From a virus: a stretch of 45,786 bases of DNA. Where the stretch lies: positions 1 to 45,786 of the IMG/VR virus record IMGVR_UViG_3300047172_000008; one strand, given 5' to 3'. The stretch's first letter is position 1. Every line of letters begins with the position of its first letter. The notes under the pieces are model-generated. The model had not been told where the DNA came from and ran no database searches. It saw nothing but the letters and a program-made list of their open reading frames with translations. The translations under genes were made by a program, and so were the position numbers. Below are positions 11,458 to 45,786 of this stretch, one piece after another.

Positions 11458-11619
11458 TTATTCTTTCGTGTTGTCTTCAACAATGATTGGCACTTTAACA
11501 CAGGTAATTCGATAACGGCAAACGCCGTCTACGTTTACCCATACTGTTTTACCCAAACCGCCAGCCGAAAAATTGACTAAAATTTCAACACATTGTTCTG
11601 GCGACGTATCGTCAAGCAT
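11458..11619 (-). CDS. Small hypothetical protein, 53 residues
   Basis: This short frame starts with ATG inside a TAATG overlap with the stop of the DUF669 gene and ends 3 bases before the GTG of the nuclease gene, so it fills an otherwise unexplained 160-base gap exactly. The product begins MGAAIMLDD or, from an internal ATG, MLDDTSPEQ, and contains the strands TVWVNVDGVCRYRITCVKV. It looks like a small beta-rich protein of unknown role. Tight coupling to both neighbours is the main evidence. Confidence 0.6.
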   Translation of the reverse strand: MLDDTSPEQCVEILVNFSAGGLGKTVWVNVDGVCRYRITCVKVPIIVEDNTKE

Positions 11620-12248
11620 TATTGCCGCGCCCATGACGGCGCATTATTTGTTGCAGGCTGTTGCGCCCACGAAGGTGTGCCGCCAGCGGGCGGTTGACCG
11701 CCAAACGCCGGTTGCTGTGTCGCCTGTGGCGCACCGCCAGCCCATGACGGCGCACCGCCGCCTTGCGGCTGGGTTGCTGGCGCTTGTGTTTGGGCAAACT
11801 GCTGGGGCGGCTGTGTGGCTGACGCGGCCAATGCAGATGCGGCGCGCGTTGGCGGTGCGCCAGCTACGTCGTAAACGCCTGCAATTTGCGTATATTTTGA
11901 ATCAGGCTGTTGCGCCATTTCGAGAATAAACGGCTTGCCCCAAAGTTCAACGCCTTCAGGCTTGGCGTCAAGGTGCAACGTCTGTGTAACGTGGCAAATA
12001 GCCGAAAGCTGACGGCCTGCGATTTCCTTTGACGTGTCGTTTTTGTTCCACAAGTTTAACGTCAACTGACCCGTCATGCCGCGTTGTGGGCCGTCAAGAA
12101 TTTCGCACGTCAAAAACAACAAACCGCTTGCCGGGTCATTTGTTGAAGCACGCGGGCCAGAAGCAATGATTTTGACAGGATATTTGCCAACTGGCATTCC
12201 CTGTTGCTGAAGTTCTGGATTGTGTTCCGTCGCATTAAACCAAGCCAT
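11619..12248 (-). CDS. DUF669 protein, putative single-strand-binding/recombination partner
   Basis: This 209-residue protein has the DUF669 pattern: MAWFNATEHNPE, then GKYPVKIIASGP, then LFLTCEILDGPQRGMTGQ, then LNLWNKND and AGRQLSAICHV. DUF669 proteins have an OB-like fold and accompany phage RecA-like or Sak recombinases. From residue about 130 the chain is a Pro/Gln/Ala-rich tail that contains the motif PSWA three times, the last just before the end (PSWARQ). In single-strand-binding proteins the disordered tail recruits partners, so repeated PSWA may do that here (inference). It lies next to the Sak4-like ATPase. Confidence 0.78.
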   Translation of the reverse strand: MAWFNATEHNPELQQQGMPVGKYPVKIIASGPRASTNDPASGLLFLTCEILDGPQRGMTGQLTLNLWNKNDTSKEIAGRQLSAICHVTQTLHLDAKPEGVELWGKPFILEMAQQPDSKYTQIAGVYDVAGAPPTRAASALAASATQPPQQFAQTQAPATQPQGGGAPSWAGGAPQATQQPAFGGQPPAGGTPSWAQQPATNNAPSWARQ

Positions 12249-12249
12249 A

Positions 12250-12930
12250 TTATGTCACTCCGTTTTCTTTGTTGAAAAGCTGTTTTAGGTTAGCTGGTTC
12301 CCATAACGAGAGAAGCCCGCTTCTATTTCGCGCTATGCAATAATCATTCGTGCTACAGCGTAACGCGGAATACTGTGAACCGTCAGGCGCAACGTGACGG
12401 CTGATAAAAATTACGTTGTCAAAATTATATGGCAACGCCGGGCCAAGTTTAGGAACAGCCGTAAAGCATTCGGCCGTCTTTACGCCTGTAATTTGATCCG
12501 TCATTTCGATAGCTTTAGAAGTCATCACAACGTTTTTGTTTTGAATGCTTTGAAAGCCTAGAACAATTTCCATAACCTGTGCGGTCGTTTCAGGCGAATA
12601 TTTGCGAGCATCGTTTTTATATGCGCGACGGTTTGCCGCGAGAATGTTTTCAGACAAAGCCGATATGCTATCAAAATATATTGTGTTGAATTGCGCGGAT
12701 TCGCGGCTAGACGTTGCCCAAGCCAAAGCGTCTTTGGCGTCGCTGTAAGCTGGCGCGGCAATGTAAGGAAGTCGGTTGCGTTGAATAGACTTCAAGCCCG
12801 GTTCTGTTGAAATAATGATGACGTTATCCGCTGTCGCGGCGAGCGGCGTTTTGCCAGAACCGGCCAAGCCATACACAAGCGAGTTTGAAAAAGCGTTGCT
12901 TATGTCGCCTGTGTTGTAAATTTTAACCAT
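12250..12930 (-). CDS. Sak4-like RecA-fold ATPase (phage recombination)
   Basis: This 226-residue protein has Walker A GLAGSGKT (21-28), a strand IIISTEPGLKS (38-48), Walker B-type TIYFDSIS (83-90), and later NKNVVMTSKA and NVIFISRH strands in the order of AAA_24/Sak4 ATPases. These core-only RecA relatives stimulate single-strand annealing with a partner SSB. The partner here is probably the DUF669 protein next to it, 1 base away. I use the ATG at 12930, which overlaps the stop of the previous small gene by 8 bases; a longer in-frame version to 13011 would cover most of that gene and adds no family sequence. Confidence 0.82.
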   Translation of the reverse strand: MVKIYNTGDISNAFSNSLVYGLAGSGKTPLAATADNVIIISTEPGLKSIQRNRLPYIAAPAYSDAKDALAWATSSRESAQFNTIYFDSISALSENILAANRRAYKNDARKYSPETTAQVMEIVLGFQSIQNKNVVMTSKAIEMTDQITGVKTAECFTAVPKLGPALPYNFDNVIFISRHVAPDGSQYSALRCSTNDYCIARNRSGLLSLWEPANLKQLFNKENGVT

Positions 12931-13123
12931 GATTGTTTTGGATGCCCCAAAAACGCGCGAGCGGTATAAATTGATTAACCGGCCTGTAAAACCATTCTTT
13001 AGCAGCGTCAAAACTTTTGTCGTGATGAATACGAAACTTGACTATGTTAAAATCAACACAATCAATTTCGACAAAAAACCCGTCGCCTTTAAGTATTCGA
13101 TTGAATACAAAATTATCAACCAT
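12923..13123 (-). CDS. Small hypothetical protein, 66 residues
   Basis: This frame overlaps the stop of the gene before it by 8 bases and the ATG of the Sak4-like gene by 8 bases, the same spacing at both ends. The product has a compact alternating pattern (DNFVFNRILKGDGFFVEI, then FNIVKFRIHHDKSFDAAKEW) and looks like a folded small protein with basic residues. I do not recognise the family. Its position between two recombination genes suggests an accessory role in the same process. Confidence 0.6.
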   Translation of the reverse strand: MVDNFVFNRILKGDGFFVEIDCVDFNIVKFRIHHDKSFDAAKEWFYRPVNQFIPLARFWGIQNNHG

Positions 13124-13550
13124 TGTAAGCCGCCTTCGGCTTTGGCGCTATTTCGAGCGACGGCATACCGTCTTTAATCTCGATAAGGCCAGAACGGTCT
13201 ATCAAGGCTTTGACTTCGTCGGTGCAAGTTTCATACGTGCTTTCAGAAAAGCGCCATTCTTGCTTGAACACCTCAACCCATTGTGGGCAGATATTTGAAA
13301 ACGCCTGAAGCTGAAGTGCCAGGGCATTTAATAGTTGCTGATTGAAAACAAATTTTATGGTTTGCTTTGCCGTCAGCTTGAAGTCTGTGCCATCATCTAA
13401 ACCGACACGGTTAACGCCTTTTTTCGGCATGGGAAAAAATTCGTTTGCAATCTCTGACCGCAAGGCAGCTTCACGTTTTTTAGCGCGCTCTAGGGACGCT
13501 TTAGCAACCGCCCATTGGACGGCTAACAAACGCTTGCGAAGTTCTGACAT
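13116..13550 (-). CDS. Hypothetical protein, first gene of the minus-strand operon
   Basis: This 144-residue protein starts with a charged helical segment (LLAVQWAVAKASLERAKKR), followed by RVGLDDGTDFKLTAKQTIKF and a C-terminal part with SESTYETCTDEVKALID. Proteins with this build (N-terminal coiled helix, a 'RVxLxxGxxLK' strand pair and a C-terminal Y-x-x-L-type helix) occur next to DUF669 and Sak genes in phages, but I cannot name a function. The ATG at 13550 has AGGGTAGG a few bases upstream. It is the first gene of an operon that runs without a break to 3454. Confidence 0.65.
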   Translation of the reverse strand: MSELRKRLLAVQWAVAKASLERAKKREAALRSEIANEFFPMPKKGVNRVGLDDGTDFKLTAKQTIKFVFNQQLLNALALQLQAFSNICPQWVEVFKQEWRFSESTYETCTDEVKALIDRSGLIEIKDGMPSLEIAPKPKAAYNG

Positions 13551-13681
13551 GATGCCTACCCTGAAACTCGATCTAGTAAGGCTTGCACGCGGCTAATGTG
13601 TCTGTCAAGACGCAAAAAGTATCATTGACGATACACGGCAAATCATTCTAGCACTACTCAACCATATTACAGGGCGGCAAG
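13551..13681. promoter_or_regulatory. Divergent control region with two short palindromes
   Basis: This 131-base gap separates the minus-strand replication operon from the plus-strand regulator and primase genes, so it should hold divergent promoters. Two inverted repeats are visible: GTCT-GTCA-AGAC at 13600-13611 and GTATC-N6-GATAC at 13619-13634. The second contains TTGACG on the plus strand, a fair -35 element, but I find no good -10 at normal spacing. The minus strand has TTGACA (13603-13608). The palindromes may be operators for the helix-turn-helix protein encoded at 13682. Confidence 0.5.
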
Positions 13682-13891
13682 ATGGACGGTTGTACGCTAC
13701 TATCTGCGACGCAGCAACTTCTAAAAAATCGGCCTAGAAGCTTGACCTTTAGCAATATCAACCGCGATTTGCCAGAGCTAAACCGCGTATGGTTGTCGCG
13801 AATGGCAAACGGTCGCATCAAAGAAACTGACGTTAACCGTGTTCAAAAATTGTATGAATACCTTACCGGAAAGCCGCTGATTAACACATAA
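13682..13891 (+). CDS. Small helix-turn-helix protein (putative regulator)
   Basis: This 69-residue protein reads as a single DNA-binding domain: a first helix ATQQLLKNR, then LTFSNINRDLPELNRVWLSRMANG with a helix-turn-helix spacing, then DVNRVQKLYEYLTGKPL. It is similar in size and build to phage Cro/CI-type or small replication regulators. The ATG follows AGGGCGG by about 4-7 bases. Its gene sits right next to the palindromes in 13551-13681, so autoregulation and control of the divergent operon are likely. It is followed 12 bases later by the primase gene. Confidence 0.7.
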   Translation: MDGCTLLSATQQLLKNRPRSLTFSNINRDLPELNRVWLSRMANGRIKETDVNRVQKLYEYLTGKPLINT

Positions 13892-13903
13892 GGCTAAAAC
13901 GTC

Positions 13904-14782
13904 ATGAGTTTTGACAATATACCGTCAGAGTTAAAGCAACTTCGTCAATGGATAAATTGGAGGCAAGATGTTAGACAAAATGGAAAAATTACAAAAACGC
14001 CTATCTGTCCGCATACAGGTGCTCTTGCCTCAGTTGTCAATCCTTTACATTGGTCTAGTTTTGATTTTTGTACCTCTCATCGCAATAGCGTGTCTGGTAT
14101 TGGTTTTGTTTTTACTAAATCAGATGATTATTGCGGGATTGATTTAGACAACCCTGACGGCGTTGTTGCAATAGCCAACTCGCATCAAGCAACGCTAGAA
14201 TATTTAAACAGCTATGCCGAAGTATCGCCAAGCGGGCAAGGCGTGCATGTTATCGTCAAAGCAAAGCTATCTAACGCGGGCAGGCGTCGCAACAAAGTTG
14301 AAATATACGACTGTGACCGCTTTTTTACCTTCACAGGCGAAAGCGTCAATAATAAGCCAATAGCTTATCGTCAAGCTGAAGTCGATTTGCTTTACAACTC
14401 GCTTGACGCGCCCGCATATATTCCTCCGTTTCAGACAGGCGAAGCACAGATTTTTGATGACGCAACTGTATTGCGTCAATGCTCGCAAGCTTCAAACGGC
14501 GAAAAATTTCAACGTTTGTATATGGGAAATTGGCAATACGATTATCCGTCACAGTCTGAAGCTGACTTCGCATTAATCAATATTCTTACCTTTTACACGA
14601 AAAACAAAGAACAAATTATCAGGCTTTTTCGCATGTCAGGCTTAGGACAACGCGAGAAAGCTAAGCGTAATAAATACATAGCGTATATGGTAAATCGTGC
14701 GTTTGACCGTATGCCGCCAAAGGCCAATATGGACGCACTACATAATCAAAGGCTTAGCTTACTCGCTTCGCTCAAAGGCTAA
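13904..14782 (+). CDS. Primase-polymerase of the archaeo-eukaryotic primase superfamily
   Basis: This 292-residue protein shows the AEP/PrimPol core: GIGFVFTKSDDYCGIDLDN with the metal-binding D80 and D82, SPSGQGVH (108-115) with the conserved S-G-x-G-x-H, and KVEIYDCDRFFTFTG (131-145). The N-terminal lead-in LRQWINWR is typical of phage PrimPols such as the NrS-1 polymerase group. The C-terminal part with GNWQYDYPSQSEAD and RLFRMSGLGQREK matches the helical segment that follows the AEP core in those proteins. It probably primes replication. The helicase gene at 14792 comes directly after it. Confidence 0.85.
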   Translation: MSFDNIPSELKQLRQWINWRQDVRQNGKITKTPICPHTGALASVVNPLHWSSFDFCTSHRNSVSGIGFVFTKSDDYCGIDLDNPDGVVAIANSHQATLEYLNSYAEVSPSGQGVHVIVKAKLSNAGRRRNKVEIYDCDRFFTFTGESVNNKPIAYRQAEVDLLYNSLDAPAYIPPFQTGEAQIFDDATVLRQCSQASNGEKFQRLYMGNWQYDYPSQSEADFALINILTFYTKNKEQIIRLFRMSGLGQREKAKRNKYIAYMVNRAFDRMPPKANMDALHNQRLSLLASLKG

Positions 14783-14791
14783 ATTATAACA

Positions 14792-16486
14792 ATGCCTTGG
14801 TTTGACGCGACAAAATGGACGCCTTGGGTTTTCAAAGGGCCGGAACAGAACTACGCGACGCCTGACGCGGTTGCGGCAGTATTCCGCCCCGATGGCCCGG
14901 TACCAGCCGCAAACCCGCTTCCAGGGGCTTCCCTGAAGCGCCCTGACCCGCCTAAGCTGGGTCACGCGGTCATTTTTCCATCGGCCGTGCCTGCTACGCC
15001 TGTAGAGCGACCGCAATGGATTGACGAAGACGGCTCCCCTTTAGATTTGCCGCCGCCCAAGCCGCCTATTAAGATTCCTGGCCTTGTAGGCGAACTAGTA
15101 GATTTTTGCTGGCATGGTTCACCTTATCAAATCGCAGAAGTCGCTATAGCGTCAGCTTTATCGTCTATGTCTTTGCTGTGCTCCCGCACCTATCGACATG
15201 GTACGTTAGGCTTATCGCTTTATATTTTGCTACTTGCAAAAACGTCTGTTGGTAAAAGCTTTTGTTTTAAAGCAAACGATGCTTGGGCAAATGAACTTGC
15301 TAAACAATTTTTAGACGTAAAGCCGCCGCATAGTGAAGAAGCTAAAAAACGTCTAGCTTATGCACGCAACATGATTATAGGTGAAATAGGCAGCGCGCAA
15401 GGCTTGGCGCAACACATGCCGCAATCGCCATCTACTCTGTTTCACGGTGATGAATACGTGCACCAAATCAAAGAAATGTCGCGGCCTAACCCGCCTTCGC
15501 ACGTCGCACAAATGCAAGCTGAATTGCTTAGGCTTATGGAAATGTCAGGTCCAGGCAGAGTTTATCGCGGTCGTAAATATTCAAAGCGTGGCAAAACTGA
15601 AGAAGAAGTAGACGTGATTATGGCGTCGCTATCAATACTTGCGACAGGAACGCCAGAAAAGTTTTACGATGAAATGCAACCATCATTGCTTGAAAACGGG
15701 TTTTTGCCTCGTTTTACATTGCTTGAATATAGCGGAAATTTGACACGTAAAAATCCAGAAGTCATAGACAAGCCTTCAGAACAGCTAATGAAAAAAATAA
15801 CAATGTTGTTTAATATGGGTTTTGAGCGTGGCAGGCATTTGACAGGAGATTTGTCAGAAGTTATTGACGTTCAACCAATCGACAAAAAAGCGTCTGATCG
15901 TTTAGACTGGTTTGAAAACGTTTGTCAACGCAATGTCGTAAAAGCTAATCGCGATGACCTTCAGACGGCCGGGCTTTGGTCGCGCGCTAAAGAGCAAGTC
16001 AAAAAAATTAGCTGTTTGATTGCCATTGGCGTTAATCCATATCAACCGCAAATAACGGAAGAATATGTCAATTCAGCTATAGCAATTATAATGCCTAATT
16101 TAGAAAAACTTGTCTCTCGCATTGTAAAAGACGAAGTTGGCACAGGTGATCCGCGAAGACGTAATGACGTGATGAAATACATGGCGAAGCTGTATGTCGG
16201 CGGCTATGCAAAATACGGCAAAGGAAAAAGTCCGATAAGGCAAGAGTTAATTGACGTAGGGATTATTCAGGTTGCCATTGTTAAAAACTACTGTTCGCAC
16301 TTGGCGTCTTTTCGCAACTGCCCACAAGGGTTTGAGCGAGCGTTTAAAGACATATTCGATAGCTTGGTCAGGTATGGCGATGTTAAATTAGTTGATGCAG
16401 GCGGTCCGCTATGTGTCACGCTAGACCTTAATGCTTTTGCTCAAATATTTCATGATATAGCTGGCAGCGCCGATGAGACAAAATAA
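14792..16486 (+). CDS. DUF3987-type replicative helicase/ATPase
   Basis: This 564-residue protein is a P-loop ATPase with Walker A AKTSVGKS (149-156) after the strand LSLYILLL, a long helical block, and FHGDEYVHQI as a probable acidic motif. The segment MASLSILATGTPEKFYDEM followed by ENGFLPRFTLLEY is typical of DUF3987 proteins, which pair with AEP primases as replicative helicases in phages and plasmids. The first 90 residues are a proline-rich tether. It is coupled to the PrimPol gene (9-base gap) and ends at a strong terminator. Confidence 0.8.
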   Translation: MPWFDATKWTPWVFKGPEQNYATPDAVAAVFRPDGPVPAANPLPGASLKRPDPPKLGHAVIFPSAVPATPVERPQWIDEDGSPLDLPPPKPPIKIPGLVGELVDFCWHGSPYQIAEVAIASALSSMSLLCSRTYRHGTLGLSLYILLLAKTSVGKSFCFKANDAWANELAKQFLDVKPPHSEEAKKRLAYARNMIIGEIGSAQGLAQHMPQSPSTLFHGDEYVHQIKEMSRPNPPSHVAQMQAELLRLMEMSGPGRVYRGRKYSKRGKTEEEVDVIMASLSILATGTPEKFYDEMQPSLLENGFLPRFTLLEYSGNLTRKNPEVIDKPSEQLMKKITMLFNMGFERGRHLTGDLSEVIDVQPIDKKASDRLDWFENVCQRNVVKANRDDLQTAGLWSRAKEQVKKISCLIAIGVNPYQPQITEEYVNSAIAIIMPNLEKLVSRIVKDEVGTGDPRRRNDVMKYMAKLYVGGYAKYGKGKSPIRQELIDVGIIQVAIVKNYCSHLASFRNCPQGFERAFKDIFDSLVRYGDVKLVDAGGPLCVTLDLNAFAQIFHDIAGSADETK

Positions 16487-16514
16487 ACTCCGCTAAATGC
16501 GGAGTTTTCTTTTT
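16485..16514 (+). terminator. Rho-independent terminator after the helicase gene
   Basis: A 9-base-pair perfect stem (16485-16493 with 16499-16507) has a 5-base loop and is followed by TCTTTTT. It overlaps the stop codon of the helicase gene and also the stop of the minus-strand gene at 16493. Confidence 0.85.
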
Positions 16515-16747
16515 AAAGCGGCTATGCGCTCTTGTTGGGTCAATCCTGACCATAGGATTTGTTTGCCTAGAACTAGACGGTCAGTGTTTTCGAGTTCTGA
16601 CTTCAGGCAATACCACTCGCGGGTTGTAGCACTTTTCAGGTTAACGTCAAAGAATTTGACTTCGCCATTGCTGTATAAGCAAGCGTAAACGCTTCTCACG
16701 TCTTCAGCTTTGTATTTGACCGACTGCCAGATAATTGTGATCTGCAT
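16493..16747 (-). CDS. Small hypothetical protein, 84 residues
   Basis: The product has a folded-looking composition: beta-type N-terminus (ITIIWQSVKYKAED, then YACLYSNGEVKFFDV) and a helical C-terminus with GLTQQERIAALKRKL. I do not recognise it. It lies downstream of the small gene at 16792 on the same strand and probably shares its promoter by read-through of the hairpin at 16779-16798. The Shine-Dalgarno is weak. Its stop falls inside the terminator of the convergent helicase operon, a compact arrangement typical of real phage genes. The opposite-strand frame is poorer. Confidence 0.55.
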   Translation of the reverse strand: MQITIIWQSVKYKAEDVRSVYACLYSNGEVKFFDVNLKSATTREWYCLKSELENTDRLVLGKQILWSGLTQQERIAALKRKLRI

Positions 16748-16771
16748 TTGCGTCTTTTCTTTGTCAATGTC

Positions 16772-16807
16772 AAAAAGTAGCCTAGCTTTCGCTAGGCTTT
16801 GCTTTTT
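16772..16807. terminator. Bidirectional terminator hairpin
   Basis: An 8-base-pair perfect stem AGCCTAGC/GCTAGGCT with TTTC loop (16779-16798) is followed on the minus strand by TTTTT (complement of 16772-16776) and on the plus strand by TTTGCTTTTT. It contains the TAG stop of the minus-strand gene at 16792. The same stem recurs at 18001-18022. Confidence 0.75.
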
Positions 16808-16971
16808 ATAATGTCTTCGTGAATTTGTCTAGTTTGATTTATTTCGTCAACCTTATTTTCAAATTGTTCTTTGTGCCATACTGTTGGAAAGCTTATGTGG
16901 CCTTCGTCGCCGTGGTAAGTAACAGTTCCGCTCATTTTCTTAGCTAGTTCGACGTATTCTTTCGTTTTCAT
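16792..16971 (-). CDS. Small hypothetical protein, 59 residues
   Basis: The ATG at 16971 is preceded by AAAGGA at good spacing and by a promoter at 17002-17030, so I use it rather than the longer frame. The product is charged and helical (KTKEYVELAKKM, then HKEQFENKVDEINQTRQ) with a short strand pair around GTVTYHGDEGHISF. No family is recognised. As the first gene leftward of the repeat palindrome it is placed like an early gene or an origin-linked regulator. Confidence 0.68.
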   Translation of the reverse strand: MKTKEYVELAKKMSGTVTYHGDEGHISFPTVWHKEQFENKVDEINQTRQIHEDIIKSKA

Positions 16972-17001
16972 CGTGCTTTTTCCTTTGTTTAGTGTGCAAC
17001 A

Positions 17002-17030
17002 CTTATAACCGTAAATGATGCTTTGTGCAA
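17002..17030 (-). promoter_or_regulatory. Sigma70-type promoter, leftward
   Basis: On the minus strand TTGCAC (17025-17030) and TATAAG (17002-17007) are separated by exactly 17 bases. Transcription would begin near 16995, just before the Shine-Dalgarno and ATG of the gene at 16971. Confidence 0.55.
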
Positions 17031-17041
17031 ACATTATTATA

Positions 17042-17346
17042 ACATGGATAATTTATGTAATCTATGTATTTTAGTATGAATTAGTATGAATTAGTATGGG
17101 CTTAGGACCGAATAGTATAACGATTTCAACGTTTTAGTAGATTAGTATGGATTTGGGGGGTCAGTGCCAGTCAATCTATTATAATTAGTTTAAATTTAGT
17201 GACTAAATGTTCATTAACTTTATGTAATGTAGCTTTATTTTTGATTGCCATACTAATCTACCAGACGGGCGGAAACCCTCATATTATTACATACTAATAT
17301 ATACTAATTATATACTAATCATACTAAATACATTAATTATCCATGT
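17042..17346. repeat. Large imperfect palindrome of phased TTAGTAT repeats; origin candidate
   Basis: The block 17035-17460 has no credible gene. TTAGTAT occurs on the left arm at 17071, 17081, 17091 and 17142 (variant ATAGTAT at 17112), and its complement ATACTAA on the right arm at 17250, 17291, 17301, 17312 and 17321. Several copies are 10 bases apart, one helical turn. The outer ends match as ACATGGATAATT (17042-17053) and its complement (17335-17346), and the inner ends as a 14-base inverted repeat (17137-17150 with 17248-17261). The centre is AT-rich and non-coding. Divergent promoters flank it. A replication origin, a partition site or a master operator would all fit. Confidence 0.7.
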
Positions 17347-17375
17347 CTGTGTAATATCTTTGAGTATCGATATGT

Positions 17376-17408
17376 TTGACGGTTTGTGCAGACGTTTACG
17401 AATATAAT
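17376..17408 (+). promoter_or_regulatory. Possible rightward promoter with long spacer
   Basis: TTGACG (17376-17381) is followed by a perfect TATAAT (17403-17408), but the spacer is 21 bases, longer than the usual 16-18. It lies just right of the repeat palindrome. It may need an activator or be inactive. Confidence 0.3.
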
Positions 17409-17462
17409 CCTATTTTGTCAAAGCTTCGTGACGGTCGCAGTATTGTGGGCAAAAGATAATGC

Positions 17463-17490
17463 TTGCGTTCCTCGCTAAATGTGCTATACT
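17463..17490 (+). promoter_or_regulatory. Sigma70-type promoter with extended -10, rightward
   Basis: TTGCGT (17463-17468) and TATACT (17485-17490) are 16 bases apart, and TG at 17482-17483 gives an extended -10. It lies 32 bases before the ATG at 17522 and heads the run of small rightward genes. It falls inside the possible longer reading frame from 17459, which argues for the shorter start. Confidence 0.5.
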
Positions 17491-17521
17491 GTTTTTGTTA
17501 CTGTTCTTTGGAGTTGCAAAT

Positions 17522-17710
17522 ATGCGAGTAATAGAAGACAAGCAATACGGCTTGGTTTGCGTGCATGATTGGAGACCTGAAGCGGTCGAAATTGTTGCAA
17601 AGATTGAAAGTGACGAAACTGACGGATGGAAGTATGTTATTGAACCATTTTGCGGCGGCTATGCAATTTGCGTTTATGACGCCGAAGGCTTTGCGCTGGG
17701 TTTAATTTAA
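17522..17710 (+). CDS. Small hypothetical protein, 62 residues
   Basis: The ATG at 17522 has TTTGGAG 8 bases upstream. A longer in-frame ATG at 17459 would add a hydrophobic 21-residue leader but has no ribosome-binding site and overlaps the promoter at 17463-17490. The product (MRVIEDKQYGLVCVHDW, then KYVIEPFCGGYAICVYD) looks like a small beta-rich protein with three cysteines. The family is unknown. It is the first gene of the rightward small-gene cluster and overlaps the next by TAATG. Confidence 0.62.
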   Translation: MRVIEDKQYGLVCVHDWRPEAVEIVAKIESDETDGWKYVIEPFCGGYAICVYDAEGFALGLI

Positions 17711-17895
17711 TGGTTAAGGTTACGGTTAGGTTTGAAAGCCTGACCGGAAAGCCTACCATCTACAGCGTGTTGAAAGCTAAGCTTAGGCGTGAGCCGACAA
17801 ACCAAGAGTTAAAGGCTGACGTTAGACGGATACTTGACGAATGTATGGTTTGCCGGGCTGAAGCTGGCAAACTTAGCTGGCAGCGTAAACGATAA
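17710..17895 (+). CDS. Small hypothetical protein, 61 residues
   Basis: The ATG shares a TAATG overlap with the previous stop. The product is basic: an N-terminal strand MVKVTVRFES, then a helical part with LKAKLRREPTNQELKADVRRIL and two cysteines (CMVC). Family is not recognised; the basic, helical C-terminus could contact nucleic acid, but this is only a guess. Confidence 0.62.
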   Translation: MVKVTVRFESLTGKPTIYSVLKAKLRREPTNQELKADVRRILDECMVCRAEAGKLSWQRKR

Positions 17896-17915
17896 CATTT
17901 TGAAAGGGTAGCCAT

Positions 17916-17996
17916 ATGAATACGAAAGCACAATTTCACCTTGCAGGAGCATTGCGTAAGCGTTTGCGAAAAGCTGGTTTTACTTCAGTTTTTTGA
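17916..17996 (+). CDS. Very short ORF, 26 residues, ending at a terminator
   Basis: An ATG with GAAAGGG 6 bases upstream opens 26 codons (MNTKAQFHLAGALRKRLRK and so on) that stop 4 bases before the terminator stem at 18001. The product is basic and helical. It may be a real micropeptide or a leader peptide whose translation affects the terminator. The ribosome-binding site is better than for several of the longer neighbours. Confidence 0.45.
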   Translation: MNTKAQFHLAGALRKRLRKAGFTSVF

Positions 17997-18000
17997 ATTT

Positions 18001-18029
18001 AAGCCTAGCGAAAGCTAGGCTTTTTTTTT
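18001..18029 (+). terminator. Strong Rho-independent terminator
   Basis: A 9-base-pair stem AAGCCTAGC/GCTAGGCTT with GAAA tetraloop (18001-18022) runs into nine T residues. The stem core is the same as at 16779-16798. It separates the first three small genes from the rest of the cluster, which has its own promoter at 18032. Confidence 0.9.
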
Positions 18030-18031
18030 GC

Positions 18032-18060
18032 TTGATTTAGGGAGGAATGGCGAATATAAC
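18032..18060 (+). promoter_or_regulatory. Sigma70-type promoter after the terminator
   Basis: TTGATT (18032-18037) and TATAAC (18055-18060) are 17 bases apart, directly after the terminator at 18001-18029. It would drive the overlapping genes from 18067 onward. Confidence 0.45.
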
Positions 18061-18066
18061 GTGCAT

Positions 18067-18171
18067 ATGAAACACATTTACTTGCTACCGAAACCGAACA
18101 CGCTGATTAAGCTAGCAGTCATAACGGCTGTTTTGGCTTATGCGTTTGCACATACGAATGGATTTATGTAA
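18067..18171 (+). CDS. Small membrane peptide, 34 residues
   Basis: The frame MKHIYLLPKPNTLIKLAV and on contains one hydrophobic stretch (LAVITAVLAYAFA) that could span the membrane, with a short basic N-terminus. It ends in a TAATG overlap with the next gene, which supports translation. There is an in-frame GTG at 18061. Role unknown. Confidence 0.5.
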   Translation: MKHIYLLPKPNTLIKLAVITAVLAYAFAHTNGFM

Positions 18172-18404
18172 TGGCAAAGCTTCCTAAAAATATGATGCTT
18201 AGGCTTAAAAATGCCAGAGCGGCGGCTAACTGCGAAAAAAGCCAATTTGGAATGCCTGCTGATTTTGTCATTTATAAAGGTCAGAAAATTTCAGTAGATG
18301 AGTTTGTGAAAGAACAAATAAGAGTGCATCACAATTCATGGGTTTTGCATCCTATTGACGAAGTTATAGCTTGGGCTGAAAACCGCGATTGGTTGTTTTT
18401 ATGA
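18171..18404 (+). CDS. Small hypothetical protein, 77 residues
   Basis: The product begins MAKLPKNMMLRLKNARAAANC and continues with FVIYKGQKISVDEFVKEQIR and a C-terminal helix DEVIAWAENRDW. It looks soluble and globular. No family is recognised. It is translationally coupled on both sides (TAATG before, ATGA after). Confidence 0.62.
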   Translation: MAKLPKNMMLRLKNARAAANCEKSQFGMPADFVIYKGQKISVDEFVKEQIRVHHNSWVLHPIDEVIAWAENRDWLFL

Positions 18405-18601
18405 GCACTCCAACGCAAAAGCTTATCAGCCGGTCAGATGATGTCATAGACGGCGTTAAATTCACGGTCACGATTAGACTGCGTAAGAAAGGCAAATGGA
18501 ATTGCTTTGAGACGCGATATTACGTTAACAGCCGTCAAGTCAAAATTGGTATTTTTGAAGGCGAGCGTAAGGCGGCATTGCAACGCGAAGTCACAAAATG
18601 A
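18401..18601 (+). CDS. Small hypothetical protein, 66 residues
   Basis: The ATG lies in an ATGA overlap with the previous stop; a longer in-frame start at 18389 has no signal. The product is beta-rich and basic (DGVKFTVTIRLRKKGKW, then ETRYYVNSRQVKIGIFEG). The pattern of paired strands with a final charged helix resembles small single-domain phage early proteins, without an assignable function. Confidence 0.62.
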   Translation: MSTPTQKLISRSDDVIDGVKFTVTIRLRKKGKWNCFETRYYVNSRQVKIGIFEGERKAALQREVTK

Positions 18602-18684
18602 CTTGGTATCACTGGATAGCTTTGACCGTGTTCACATTCGTGTGGGCATCGGTCAGCTTGCATAATCGAAAGCAAAAGAAATGA
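18598..18684 (+). CDS. Small membrane peptide, 28 residues
   Basis: The frame runs from an ATGA overlap with the previous stop to an ATGA overlap with the next start. It encodes MTWYHWIALTVFTFVWASV followed by a basic tail ending KQKK, the look of a single-span membrane peptide with a cytoplasmic basic end. Its perfect fit between two overlapping genes is the main evidence. Confidence 0.55.
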   Translation: MTWYHWIALTVFTFVWASVSLHNRKQKK

Positions 18685-19031
18685 GTAAGCACGCAAAGCC
18701 GGGCTTTCGTTATAGCAAATGGACGTTAACCGATGCAAACAAACAGTATTTTGTAGCGCAAGCATCGTTAGACACTTTTGTTGAACGTCTTTTGGCAAAG
18801 TTAGACAGTTTTATAGCTGAAGGCGGTTTAATCGACGAAGGCGTTAAAAACGTGTTTGACGCTTTTAAATGGTTTTTGACGGTCAATTCTGTTTGTATTG
18901 TTTGCGGCGCTCATCATCATTTTAATTATTGCTTGCTTGCTGACATATTGACTTATCGTTGCGAGCATGATTACCGTATGGACGGCGTGACCGTTCATTT
19001 TGATGGTAGCGTCAGCACAGGGGAAGCGTGA
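18681..19031 (+). CDS. Hypothetical protein with Cys/His cluster, 116 residues
   Basis: The N-terminal half is helical (LDTFVERLLAKLDSFIAEGG). The C-terminal half carries CIVCGAHHHFNYC and then YRCEHDY, a Cys/His pattern that could bind zinc. Family not recognised. It overlaps its neighbours on both sides and belongs to the small-gene cluster. Confidence 0.62.
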   Translation: MSKHAKPGFRYSKWTLTDANKQYFVAQASLDTFVERLLAKLDSFIAEGGLIDEGVKNVFDAFKWFLTVNSVCIVCGAHHHFNYCLLADILTYRCEHDYRMDGVTVHFDGSVSTGEA

Positions 19032-19033
19032 AT

Positions 19034-19219
19034 ATGGAAGCTTGGCTTATTGCGTCTATTTTTGTTTGGCCGCTGGCGGTTTTTCCTATCGGCTTGGCGT
19101 TGCGTCGCTCGGCACGAATCGAACTAAAACCCATTCAGGACGATAGCGAGCCCGACCCGCGTGACCAATGGTTGCGCGACAATGCAAAGCGTTATAACGA
19201 TTTTGACCGCGAAGTTTAA
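19034..19219 (+). CDS. Small membrane protein, 61 residues
   Basis: The ATG at 19034 has AGGGGA about 9 bases upstream; the in-frame GTG at 19028 would be too close. The product has an N-terminal membrane span (EAWLIASIFVWPLAVFPIGL), a basic turn RRSAR and an acidic soluble tail (DDSEPDPRDQWLRDN). It is probably an inner-membrane protein of unknown role. Confidence 0.6.
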   Translation: MEAWLIASIFVWPLAVFPIGLALRRSARIELKPIQDDSEPDPRDQWLRDNAKRYNDFDREV

Positions 19220-19222
19220 GCC

Positions 19223-19306
19223 ATGCGTATCAGCGAATGGTTTATCTTAGCTGGCGTTTCGGCCGTGCTGTTCTTGGTTGTATGGTCATCGCTAATATGG
19301 CCTTAA
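19223..19306 (+). CDS. Small membrane peptide, 27 residues
   Basis: The frame MRISEWFILAGVSAVLFLVV and on is almost entirely one hydrophobic span. It begins 3 bases after the previous stop and overlaps the start of the next gene by 10 bases. It is one of three tiny single-span peptides in this cluster (with 18067 and 18598). Confidence 0.5.
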   Translation: MRISEWFILAGVSAVLFLVVWSSLIWP

Positions 19307-19512
19307 AACATTCAACTTATATCGCGTGTCAGCTTTGCGACGTGACGCATATGTATCAAGGCTTTCGCTGCACAGATTGCGGTGGACGCGGCTACGTCAA
19401 AGAAGGTAGCGAAGCGCATGCTCGGCAACGTGCCGTAGCCGTTGCTAGGTCTAATCAGAAAAGACAGGCGACATACAAACGAAAGGTGCGAGCAAATGCT
19501 AAAGGAATGTAA
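19297..19512 (+). CDS. DnaJ-type zinc-finger small protein A
   Basis: From the ATG at 19297 the 71-residue product reads CQLCDVTHMYQGFRCTDC, then GGRGYVKEGSEAHARQ, a CxxC...CxxCxGxG arrangement like one repeat pair of the DnaJ cysteine-rich domain. The C-terminus is strongly basic (RSNQKRQATYKRKVRAN). It is related to the gene at 19666, with the same C-x-D-C-x-G-x-G-(Y/W)-(V/I)-K-x-G-S order. Longer in-frame starts exist at 19237 and 19282 but overlap the previous frame. Such small zinc proteins often accompany phage early genes; function unknown. Confidence 0.65.
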   Translation: MALKHSTYIACQLCDVTHMYQGFRCTDCGGRGYVKEGSEAHARQRAVAVARSNQKRQATYKRKVRANAKGM

Positions 19513-19669
19513 GAATTGCAAGTTTTATGACGGTGAACAATGCCGACGCTATCCGGCCGTCATAATCGTGGTTGACAGCACGCCGATAGACACTTGGCCT
19601 AATGTTGACGCTAAAGACTGGTGCGGCGAGTTTAGCGAGCGTGAGCGGTCGCTAGGCAACGAAGCATGA
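19496..19669 (+). CDS. Four-cysteine small protein, 57 residues
   Basis: The ATG at 19496 has GAAAGG 9 bases upstream, better than the longer frame from 19442. The product MLKECKNCKFYDGEQCRRYP then has a final DWCGEF, giving C-x2-C-x7-C and a distant C. This is a recurring small protein type in phages and bacteria, probably metal-binding. It overlaps both zinc-finger genes that flank it. Confidence 0.68.
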   Translation: MLKECKNCKFYDGEQCRRYPAVIIVVDSTPIDTWPNVDAKDWCGEFSERERSLGNEA

Positions 19670-19851
19670 GTAAAGCCAAAAAATTAGCTTCAATTCCAAT
19701 ATCTAAGGAAACTACTTGCAAGCTGTGCAAAGGCTTAGGTATTTTTGAAGAATGCGAATGTGAAGATTGTGATGGTAAAGGCTGGATTAAAGTTGGTAGC
19801 GATATCCACGCACAGCAGCTAAAACTATCCAGAAACAAGAGACGAAAATGA
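19666..19851 (+). CDS. DnaJ-type zinc-finger small protein B
   Basis: This 61-residue product has CKLCKGLGIFEECECEDC followed by DGKGWIKVGSDIHAQQ, a clear CxxCxGxG...CxxCxGxG pair as in the DnaJ cysteine-rich domain, and a basic C-terminus (LSRNKRRK). It has no J-domain, so it is not a co-chaperone by itself. It is a paralogue of 19297-19512. Overlaps on both sides are ATGA-type. Confidence 0.72.
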   Translation: MSKAKKLASIPISKETTCKLCKGLGIFEECECEDCDGKGWIKVGSDIHAQQLKLSRNKRRK

Positions 19852-20333
19852 TTCGGCCGGATGACTACGCTAAGTCGAATACAGAACATGCTCATCAAGT
19901 CGCGCTGTTCATGTGGGCATCGCACGCTAAGACGCTAGAACCGCGCCTAGAGTGGATGCACGCTATACCTAATGGCGGGTTGCGCGACAAGCGCACGGCC
20001 GGGCGGTTAAAGGCTGAAGGCGTCAAGCAAGGCGTAAGCGACGTGTTTTTGCCTGTGCCTATGATGGACCAAAACGCTATGCGTTTAGACTATTGCGGGC
20101 TGTATATCGAACTGAAACGAATTAAGTCTTTCGCGCATGAAACCGGCATTGCTAGAGCAAAAGGCATATTAAGTGAAAAACAAGAAAAGTTTAAAGCTTA
20201 TGCTAATTCTGTAGGGTATCGCGCTGTCGAATGTTACGGCTGGAAAAGTGCAATTAGCGAGATTTGCTTGTATCTTTATTGCGACTGGAAAGTGCTTAAT
20301 CAATATGTAGAGGAAAAGTTAAATGGCAAATAG
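19848..20333 (+). CDS. VRR-NUC domain nuclease
   Basis: This 161-residue protein has the VRR-NUC signature: an N-terminal HAHQVALFMWA helix, MHAIPNGGLRDKRTAGRLKA (37-56), GVKQGVSDVFLP (58-69, catalytic D65), LYIELKR (85-91, E88 and K90), then LSEKQEKFKAYANSVGY. Phage VRR-NUC proteins are structure-specific nucleases, thought to act on branched DNA such as Holliday junctions. It would fit resolution of recombination intermediates before packaging. Confidence 0.85.
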   Translation: MIRPDDYAKSNTEHAHQVALFMWASHAKTLEPRLEWMHAIPNGGLRDKRTAGRLKAEGVKQGVSDVFLPVPMMDQNAMRLDYCGLYIELKRIKSFAHETGIARAKGILSEKQEKFKAYANSVGYRAVECYGWKSAISEICLYLYCDWKVLNQYVEEKLNGK

Positions 20334-20684: not shown

Positions 20685-20867
20685 ATGGTTTTAAACTTGA
20701 TTGACCAGACGAAGCCGGAAGTTAACCATCAGGCTTTGTTGTATCGTGCCTATCTTTCGGTCATGCGTTGCCTTGGCGACGCTAGGCCGCATGAACGTTT
20801 GCCAATGCTTCGTGCATTGCAAACACAAGTTGAAATCGCAATCGACCGTGAAAACGGCATAACATAG
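20685..20867 (+). CDS. Small helical hypothetical protein, 60 residues
   Basis: The product is a predicted helix bundle (HQALLYRAYLSVMRCLGD, then RLPMLRALQTQVEIAIDRE). AGGGTAAG lies just before the ATG. No family is recognised. It is the last gene before the pilin gene, whose ribosome-binding site overlaps its stop codon. Confidence 0.6.
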   Translation: MVLNLIDQTKPEVNHQALLYRAYLSVMRCLGDARPHERLPMLRALQTQVEIAIDRENGIT

Positions 20868-20879
20868 GAGCATAGTAAA

Positions 20880-21041
20880 ATGACGAAACTTTTTGTGCGT
20901 TTTTCTGACAATCGCAAAGCTGTGACGGCGATTGAATACGCTTTGATTGCGGCGCTTATCGCCGTGGTGATCATCGGCGCTGTGACTTCGCTCGGCCACG
21001 GCGTAAGCAACACCTTCAGTCACGTCGCATCGGAACTCTAG
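20880..21041 (+). CDS. Flp/Tad-type pilin, full length (phage-encoded)
   Basis: This 53-residue product matches the Flp pilins of Tad (type IVc) pili from end to end. There is a 14-residue basic leader (MTKLFVRFSDNRKA), a cleavage region A|VTAIEY in which Glu is +5 and Tyr +6 of the mature chain, then a hydrophobic helix LIAALIAVVIIGAV, then TSLGHGVSNTFSHVAS. The family consensus for prepilin peptidase is G|xxxxEY; here the residue before the cut is Ala instead of Gly. AGGAG sits 9 bases before the ATG. Codons end mostly in C or G (GTC, ATC, GCC, GGC), unlike the AT-ending neighbours, and two strong terminators follow, so it looks like a recently acquired moron taken from a host. No other Tad gene is present, so the product would use the host machine. 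It could co-assemble with or poison the host pilus, for example to block other pilus-dependent phages; that is inference. Confidence 0.88.
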   Translation: MTKLFVRFSDNRKAVTAIEYALIAALIAVVIIGAVTSLGHGVSNTFSHVASEL

Positions 21042-21118: not shown

Positions 21119-21150
21119 AAATCCCGTCGCAGCCTGCGACGGGATTTTTG
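21119..21150 (+). terminator. Strong Rho-independent terminator after the pilin gene
   Basis: A 13-base-pair perfect stem (21119-21131 with 21135-21147) has a GCC loop and ends in a short T run. Its GC-rich stem differs in style from the phage's other terminators and resembles a host-type terminator. Confidence 0.88.
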
Positions 21151-22640: not shown

Positions 22641-22931
22641 ATGAACGCGAGCGTAAAAGGCGGCGGTAGCGTTTTTAAACATTGGCTGGAATGGCTGAAA
22701 GAACTATTGCAAAGCGGATGGCTTACGCAAGCTGAATTGCGTATCATCCGCGCCGTGATTAAGGCGTTTCATCAGAAAGTACCGAATGGCGGTCAGCCTA
22801 AGATTAAAGGCATGTTGACGGCAGAGCATTCCATAGCTTTGCGGGCAATGGCAAATCGTCATGCGTCAAGCCCTGAAGTTTCAAACGCTTTGAACAAAGC
22901 GGCCGATGAAGTAGAAGATAAATTAAAGTGA
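22641..22931 (+). CDS. Hypothetical protein, 96 residues
   Basis: The product is helical and basic, with HWLEWLKELLQSGWLTQAEL followed by IRAVIKAFHQKV and AMANRHASSPEVSNALNK. No membrane span or enzyme motif is seen. It lies between the endolysin and the sulfotransferase-like gene and overlaps the latter by GTGA. The role is unknown. Confidence 0.6.
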   Translation: MNASVKGGGSVFKHWLEWLKELLQSGWLTQAELRIIRAVIKAFHQKVPNGGQPKIKGMLTAEHSIALRAMANRHASSPEVSNALNKAADEVEDKLK

Positions 22932-23554
22932 GTTCAGGTGCTTTAGTTTTAAACGGTCAGCCGGTTGCCGAAGAAATGACGCTTATCATTAGCGGCATTG
23001 GTCGTTGCGGTACTTCAATGATAGCGGCTATATTGAATAGCTTAGGTTTTAACCTTGGCCGCGTTGAACCGCCTGTTTATGAAGACGCAGATATGAACTT
23101 TGCGCTTCGTCATTTCTACCATGAGGCACGATATAAGGTTATTGCCTATAGAAACGATAACCTCGCAAAATGGGGTTTTAAAATTCCGGGCATTCAAAAT
23201 CATTTGCAACCGCCTGAAATCGTCGCGCATTTTCGTAAGCCGCGCATGGTCATTATGCAGCGAGACAACGCGGCCGTGGCAGCACGATTATTAAAAAGCG
23301 ACGGTGCGACGTTTAAGCATCCTACACATGCTTTGCGTCATGCGTCGCGCCAGCAAGATAAGCTTATCGAGTTTGCCGAATTGTGCGAATGTCCAGTCGC
23401 AGTCATTTCGTATGAAAAGTTTGTTTTGAATGCAAAACCGCACGTTGAATTTTTGGCCGGGTTTACTGGCATAAAGCTGACCGACGAAGCTTTACAAAAA
23501 GCCGTTGACTTAGTAATGCCGAATAATCCGCAATACGCTTTAGCTTTTCAATAA
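22928..23554 (+). CDS. Sulfotransferase-like P-loop protein
   Basis: This 208-residue protein has the sulfotransferase 5'-phosphosulfate loop SGIGRCGTSMIAAILNSLG (22-40), preceded by the strand MTLII and followed by an aliphatic helix. Later come KWGFKIPGI and PRMVIMQRDNAAVAARLLK, which occupy the position of the 3'-phosphate site, then VAVISYEKF near the end. It is short but covers the core fold. Sulfotransferases move sulfate from PAPS to hydroxyls or amines on glycans and other acceptors. In a phage it could alter a host surface glycan or a virion glycan, or be a kinase-like relative using the same P-loop. Start is GTG (GTGA overlap); ATG at 22976 is an alternative. Confidence 0.68.
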   Translation: MSSGALVLNGQPVAEEMTLIISGIGRCGTSMIAAILNSLGFNLGRVEPPVYEDADMNFALRHFYHEARYKVIAYRNDNLAKWGFKIPGIQNHLQPPEIVAHFRKPRMVIMQRDNAAVAARLLKSDGATFKHPTHALRHASRQQDKLIEFAELCECPVAVISYEKFVLNAKPHVEFLAGFTGIKLTDEALQKAVDLVMPNNPQYALAFQ

Positions 23555-45365: not shown

Positions 45366-45786
45366 ATGACGACTGGCAACGTTGGGCAAGCTGGCGCTTT
45401 AGCTTTAAGCAAGTCTTCGCCTAAAGCTGAAGTCTCGCAAGCTGGCGCACTTGCCACGGCTATTTCAAATCCTCAAACTGAAGTTTCACAAGTTGGCGTT
45501 TTAGCTTTAGAAATTTCTGACCCGAAAGTAGAAGTGTCGCAAGCTGGCGTTTTAATGCTAGTTCGATACATTACGGGAGACGTTGCACAAGCTGGCATTC
45601 TCGCGACGGCGCTTGCTAATCCGCAAGCTGAAATTTCGCAATCTGGTATTGTTGCGCTTTCGATAGCAAAGCCTGAAGCTGAGGTCTCACAAGCTGGCGC
45701 ATTGGCACTTGTGACTTACATTGTTGCCGTCGCTGATGCTGACGTTGCACAGGCTGGCGTTTTGTCTTTTGTTCGTTATCCATTTC
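45366..45786 (+). CDS. Repeat-bearing baseplate wedge protein, 5' part of the end-spanning gene
   Basis: This is the 5' part of the gene that continues at 1-562. From the ATG at 45366 the product has eight imperfect repeats of 16-20 residues: NVGQAG, EVSQAGALA, EVSQVGVLA, EVSQAGVLM, DVAQAGILA, EISQSGIVA, EVSQAGALA and DVAQAGVLS, most followed by a short polar spacer often containing Pro. They precede a proline linker and the gp46/gp25-like wedge domain. The pattern predicts regularly repeated short beta strands, and similar V-x-Q-x-G repeats are known in other phage baseplate proteins. The Shine-Dalgarno is weak. The last two bases of the window differ from the start-copy. Confidence 0.75.
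   Translation, partial: MTTGNVGQAGALALSKSSPKAEVSQAGALATAISNPQTEVSQVGVLALEISDPKVEVSQAGVLMLVRYITGDVAQAGILATALANPQAEISQSGIVALSIAKPEAEVSQAGALALVTYIVAVADADVAQAGVLSFVRYPF
45659..45784. repeat. Terminal redundancy, right copy
   Basis: This copy is identical to bases 1-126. The reading frame of the end-spanning wedge gene is the same in both copies, so joining them gives one uninterrupted gene and a circle. Confidence 0.9.

Follow-up and report, generated by a model that had tools for sequence, protein, structure and literature searches.

Pili are common phage receptors. The locus considered here raises a related question, namely why a phage might itself carry a gene for a pilin. It lies in IMG/VR record IMGVR_UViG_3300047172_000008, whose whole length of 45,786 bp was analyzed and is called the window below. 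We ask whether the gene encodes a genuine pilin, whether it belongs to the phage, and what it might do there.

A predicted Flp prepilin gene in a phage genome

The first 126 bases of the window recur at its end, so the record is probably a complete genome. The two copies (positions 1-126 and 45659-45784) form a direct repeat within a repeat-rich coding region. Because the window encodes TerL, portal, head, sheath, baseplate and tape-measure proteins, together with a DNA polymerase, a primase and helicases, the virus is, by its predicted gene content, a contractile-tailed phage. We found no tyrosine integrase in the window.

The plus-strand open reading frame (ORF) at 20880-21041 has the predicted product MTKLFVRFSDNRKA|VTAIEYALIAALIAVVIIGAVTSLGHGVSNTFSHVASEL*, where the bar marks the leader cleavage site. 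An earlier note on this DNA had described the 53-residue frame as a full Flp prepilin, and each part that it named was confirmed: a 14-residue leader, the cleavage region A|VTAIEY, Glu at +5, a hydrophobic helix and a polar tail. Tyr at +6, which together with the Glu characterizes Flp/Fap pilins, is also present. In the Pfam search that the note had proposed, PF04964 (Flp_Fap) matched at 59.1 bits (E 3.7e-16; profile positions 1-44 of 46), above the family's curated cut-off of 32.2 bits, which argues that the frame is not a chance ORF. No NCBIfam model passed for the pilin, and a PDB search matched it to the Tad pilin structures 8U1K and 8U2B (E 6.5e-06). By its profile score, the product is a member of the Flp family.

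The numbering of the pilin coincides with that of PilA of C. crescentus, in that 14 residues are removed and the conserved pair is Glu19 and Tyr20. PilA likewise has a 14-aa leader, and its E19 and Y20 are needed for filament assembly (PMC11067988). The residue at -1 is Ala, where Gly is usual for Flp pilins in general; in our alignment, Ala at this position is the rule among the Acetobacteraceae/Acidocella clade. These features support the prediction that the pilin is fit for processing by a host's Tad machine.

The surroundings of the gene (Table 1) also agree with several points of the earlier note. The AGGAG that it had reported is present, and because this Shine-Dalgarno sequence overlaps the stop of the phage ORF that precedes it, the pilin gene appears to be wired into a phage transcript. 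Both of the downstream terminators that it had claimed correspond to hairpins followed by T runs. A scan gave no clear promoter belonging to the pilin gene itself, which closes a plus-strand run of small ORFs. The note's observation of C-ending codons unlike those of the neighbors holds in direction, with a GC3 of 0.63 (0.70 in the mature part) versus 0.29-0.57 in the record's other ORFs, but the difference is only moderate.

Table 1. Features at and near the pilin gene, in window coordinates
Feature	Positions	Strand	Evidence or remark
VRR-NUC-like nuclease gene near the pilin	19848..20333	+	weak Pfam VRR_NUC match, E 0.0017, under its cut-off
60-aa phage ORF directly upstream of the pilin, 12-nt gap	20685..20867	+	no Pfam match
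Shine-Dalgarno AGGAG	20866..20870	+	sequence; overlaps stop codon (20865-20867) of preceding phage ORF
Flp/Tad prepilin gene, 53 aa (14-aa leader, 39-aa mature part)	20880..21041	+	Pfam Flp_Fap 59.1 bits; phage homologues 78 and 84% identical
Strong hairpin and T run, where the pilin transcript likely ends by intrinsic termination	21119..21148	+	within a -22.9 kcal/mol fold, z -5.9
Second terminator-like hairpin and T run, before the next phage genes	21231..21250	+	scan; fold -16.4 kcal/mol, z -3.8

The gene is the only Flp copy in the record. The earlier note had seen no other Tad genes, and indeed neither the Tad ATPase (PF00437) nor the prepilin peptidase (PF01478) was found in the window or in the two phages with a similar pilin that are described below, G001 and G002; linked tad/cpa machinery of the kind that marks a Tad locus is absent from all three. 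As for the other neighbors, we found no relatives of a flanking 198-aa gene, and relatives of the VRR-NUC-like gene occurred in 11 contigs, none with an Flp gene. From 21316 onward, some ORFs encode small proteins predicted to lie in the membrane and one ORF is lysozyme-like; these were recognized by inspection and have no Pfam match.

The same pilin type in other phages

A scan of IMG/VR identified similar pilins in G001 (53.7 kb; 78% identical to the window's pilin) and G002 (50.3 kb; 84% identical). G001 encodes TerL, portal and major head proteins, a DNA polymerase, a helicase and an endolysin, while G002 encodes TerL, a DNA polymerase, thymidylate synthase, helicases and tail proteins; on this predicted gene content both are real phages, and we found a tyrosine integrase in neither. 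When the listed window proteins were compared by tblastn with stretches of roughly 16 kb around the two pilins, only the pilin matched, apart from a sulfotransferase in G002 (32% identity). By this comparison the window phage is unrelated to G001 and G002, which are also unrelated to each other. All three have the same type of pilin, which looks more like an accessory gene that recurs among phages than like a single isolated capture.

In G001 and G002 the pilin gene likewise stands alone, amid replication and recombination genes. The neighbors are a helicase and an exonuclease in G001, a DNA polymerase and a resolvase-like nuclease in G002, and the VRR-NUC-like gene in the window. The nuclease gene directly 3' of the G002 pilin matches a PHROG family of Holliday junction resolvases (E 0.00024). 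Leader length varies across the three pilins, and no phage copy has lost the leader, the cleavage motif, E+5 or Y+6. A separate observation is that sulfotransferase-like genes with 32% identity lie 2-3.5 kb downstream of the pilin in the window (22928-23554) and in G002 (11473-12096 of contig stretch L003). A link between pilin and sulfotransferase, observed in Acidocella aromatica and in two phages, failed across hosts and was dropped.

The earlier note had suggested looking for the gene in related phages and for signs of frame decay. The frame has no such signs, but an Flp gene was found in none of the 44 terminase relatives of the window, which are distant (35-61% TerL identity) and many of which are fragments. 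Because it is absent from all of them, the pilin can be an accessory gene at best. It has the attributes of a moron, i.e., its own ribosome binding site (RBS) and terminator-like hairpins, absence from the 44 relatives, and a higher GC3.

Cellular relatives and selection

Among cellular proteins, the closest (69-84% identity) are the products of orphan flp genes from Acetobacteraceae, Acidocella among them, and the mature pilin is 90% identical to the closest of them over 40 aa. In A. aromatica, the flp genes are orphans amid housekeeping genes. TadE was present in all eight of the tested Acetobacteraceae-type genomes that carry the closest pilins. From the pilin alone, we infer that the host of the window phage belongs to the Acetobacteraceae. 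Relatives of the window's TerL were sought in 397 genomes from the GTDB family to which Acidocella belongs; none was found, and so this search does not confirm the host. We know of no phage receptor in Acidocella.

A tree built on 40 aligned residues unites the three phage pilins in a single clade (support 97/92), whose nearest relative is an Acetobacteraceae MAG; a DNA tree does not group them, though their grouping is not rejected (AU p 0.39). Between the phage pilins dN is 0.10-0.15 and dS 1.3-2.3, the latter near saturation, so that their divergence appears to be mostly synonymous. The pilin protein would thus have been conserved while the sequences diverged for a long time, either in phages or in part within hosts. 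If the phages acquired the gene separately, part of the purifying selection could date from periods in which it resided in host genomes. Taken together, the profile match, the conserved cleavage and assembly residues, and this mostly synonymous divergence argue that the phage carries a genuine, processable Flp prepilin.

The phage pilins also differ from cellular ones in common ways, at positions that were chosen for comparison after the sequences had been seen. All three have His40, which occurs in only three of 131 unique cellular pilins, and all lack Asn47, which is present in 18 of the 19 cellular pilins of the same clade. One of the three cellular pilins with H40, from Acidocella, contains GHGVS; LGHGVS, which on a first check had seemed to be a phage-only motif, was dropped after this fuller count. 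Positions 40 and 47 lie in the outward (exposed) half of the filament, close to N43, K48, T51 and the C terminus, which are contacted by phage PhiCb5.

In its leader, cleavage region, E+5/Y+6, helix and tail, the window pilin resembles the Flp/Fap pilins of Tad (type IVc) systems, such as C. crescentus PilA (PDB 8U1K/8U2B) and the orphan flp products of Acidocella and other Acetobacteraceae. It differs from them in being encoded by a phage without Tad machinery, in having His40 and no Asn47, and in its Ala at -1, which is a trait of its clade.

Pilins in other viral contigs

A broad profile scan detected Flp genes in 43 viral contigs, some of which are probably bacterial flanks. Several of the genes are located in phages, among them L206, with a portal gene, L217 (129 kb), with a NAMPT gene of a PHROG family beside its Flp-like pilin, and L006, with a terminase. 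L006 belongs to the weaker viral matches, as do L007, with tail and DNA circularization genes, and L005, with an Acb1/SLT protein. The L007 Flp gene sits at the contig end, as do some other matches in the viral collection. L004, in which only a resolvase was seen, was not counted as a phage. Among the remaining observations, two large viral contigs (L230 and L231; 183 and 94 kb) have Flp-like pilins beside PhoH and glycosyltransferase genes, and a contig with an Flp pilin (L146) encodes at 11562-19541 a 2659-aa phage protein with transglycosylase (SLT) and anti-CBASS Acb1 domains.

The clearest group with Flp genes consists of phiLM21-like (pro)phages of Sinorhizobium (L203, L207-L212 and L236), whose pilin is a different Flp pilin from that of the window, G001 and G002. 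Its site is fixed, between the terminase and a NusG-like gene and adjacent to a phage tRNA-Met; the pilin is absent from phiLM21 itself. The pilin alleles are 72-76% identical, while most neighboring genes are ~87-97% identical in DNA, and some alleles are 100% identical across phages of different terminase type. Their dN is 0.42 in the C-terminal half versus 0.05 in the leader and core. This pattern is what allele exchange under selection on an exposed surface would give; however, variation in the outward half is also normal for Flp pilins generally.

A tblastn search of annotated phages with the pilin gave no match. The same query also missed plasmids, where Flp genes exist (one was seen on S. 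meliloti pSymB), so these blanks, probably due to low-complexity filtering, are no evidence of absence. A distant blastn search against phages gave chance pieces only.

Possible functions of the phage pilin

We propose that the gene encodes a working Flp prepilin of the Tad (type IVc) kind and stands alone, and that the phage gained it from an Acetobacteraceae-like host lineage and retains it as an accessory gene. During infection, the host prepilin peptidase would cut the phage prepilin at Ala14|Val15, and the host Tad machine would then build the phage pilin into host pili. The phage subunits would present a changed exposed C-terminal surface or change the behavior of the filament, and the altered pili would serve other pilus-using phages poorly as receptors, a form of superinfection exclusion in which the receptor is altered. 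We hold this reading, in which the phage pilin would enter host Tad pili, alter their surface or function and exclude pilus-using phages, with somewhat less than even confidence. The view that the pilin acts on host pili and thereby blocks other pilus-using phages is favored by its recurrence, its probably early location and its outward differences. Recurrence in unrelated phages, the location in a replication or early module and the phiLM21-like variation in the exposed half lend indirect support to exclusion. The suggestion in the earlier note that the pilin might be displayed as a decoy found no support.

It might instead be the amount of pilin that matters. An ordinary pilin would be kept available after host shut-off, or its level raised, so that infected cells keep or increase their pili (for attachment, biofilm or delayed detachment) and progeny find hosts. 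The 90% identity of the mature part to the closest cellular pilin, the retention of all assembly residues and the orphan state of the Acidocella flp genes fit such a role, but if quantity alone counts, one would expect neither the common changes at positions 40 and 47 nor the differing alleles of the phiLM21-like pilins. A gain for a lytic phage is also not obvious. We regard this explanation as unlikely. The pilin could also be a passenger, i.e., a host gene gained by illegitimate recombination, intact because the gain is recent, and functionless for the phage. Although its GC3 exceeds that of the genome and the terminase relatives lack it, a passenger is rather improbable given the same pilin type in three unrelated phages, the mostly synonymous divergence with dS above 1, and the fusion of its RBS to a phage stop codon with terminator-like hairpins behind the gene.

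We are more doubtful still that piliation is blocked because the small prepilin saturates the host's prepilin peptidase or its pilus platform, without joining a working filament. The gene's early-module location is compatible with jamming of this kind, and the Ala at -1 and the variable leader length in the three phages could alter processing; however, this Ala is normal in the host clade, and conservation of the entire mature helix, including the assembly residues, goes beyond what a peptidase decoy needs. That the hydrophobic helix serves a purpose unrelated to pili, e.g., as a small holin-like lysis protein, is highly improbable. The product is indeed short, with a single hydrophobic helix, and the membrane and lysozyme-like genes from 21316 on lie nearby, but both hairpins separate the pilin from those genes, its neighbors in G001 and G002 are replication genes, and every phage copy retains the leader, cleavage motif, E+5 and Y+6. 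The least plausible explanation is host DNA misassembled or wrongly binned into a viral contig. Matches at contig ends such as that in L007 illustrate this risk, yet phage ORFs flank the present gene in the middle of its contig, the record carries a 126-bp terminal repeat, the RBS of the gene overlaps a phage stop codon, and the pattern is repeated in two more long phage contigs.

Comparison with known systems

The earlier note's statement that nothing like this had been described needs qualification. Flp pilin genes were already listed for V. harveyi, in the prophages phi354 and phiGAN1709, as a virulence factor (PMC12482185), and in a gene table for phiLM21-like prophages of S. meliloti (PMC12429752), in both cases without experiments. 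We found no functional study of a prophage flp gene in the literature searched, which excluded most subscription journals. These prophages are like the window in that a stand-alone Flp gene is present in a tailed (pro)phage. They are temperate and have other hosts, whereas no tyrosine integrase is present in the window, G001 or G002, which have an Acetobacteraceae-type pilin in common. Two findings are new here: unrelated phages that lack a tyrosine integrase repeatedly carry the same pilin type, and phiLM21-like prophages have a pilin locus that has diversified.

Receptor alteration by small phage proteins has precedents. The Pseudomonas phage proteins D3112 Gp05, DMS3 Aqs1, QDWS Gp21 and Pf4 pVII disable type IV pili and exclude rivals (PMC11436027), an effect on a receptor pilus that is demonstrated there and proposed here. 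However, these proteins inhibit motors, platforms or expression and are not themselves pilins, whereas the window phage encodes a subunit of the filament. As for the filament surface, PhiCb5 contacts residues V29, V30, V32, T33, N43, K48 and T51 and the C terminus of the C. crescentus pilin, and a natural variant with N43R and T51A loses PhiCb5 binding (PMC11067988).

Implications

An intact pilin in the window virus, in at least two unrelated viruses and in Sinorhizobium prophages suggests that phages have repeatedly taken up a pilin gene, perhaps to alter a surface structure by which other phages enter. It is possible, though rather doubtful, that several tailed-phage lineages carry pilin genes as receptor-altering morons, in which the host subunit is replaced or mixed, competitors are shut out, and the exposed part diversifies by allele exchange. 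If a phage does supply a filament subunit in this way, the receptor would be rebuilt rather than removed, while known countermeasures switch pilus assembly off. The Acetobacteraceae-type pilins of the three unrelated phages and those of the phiLM21-like prophages of Sinorhizobium, a host that is easily grown and makes Tad pili, are genes with which this can be tested. Even if their role is only to supply pilin, they would still show that phages maintain the adhesion of their host during infection.
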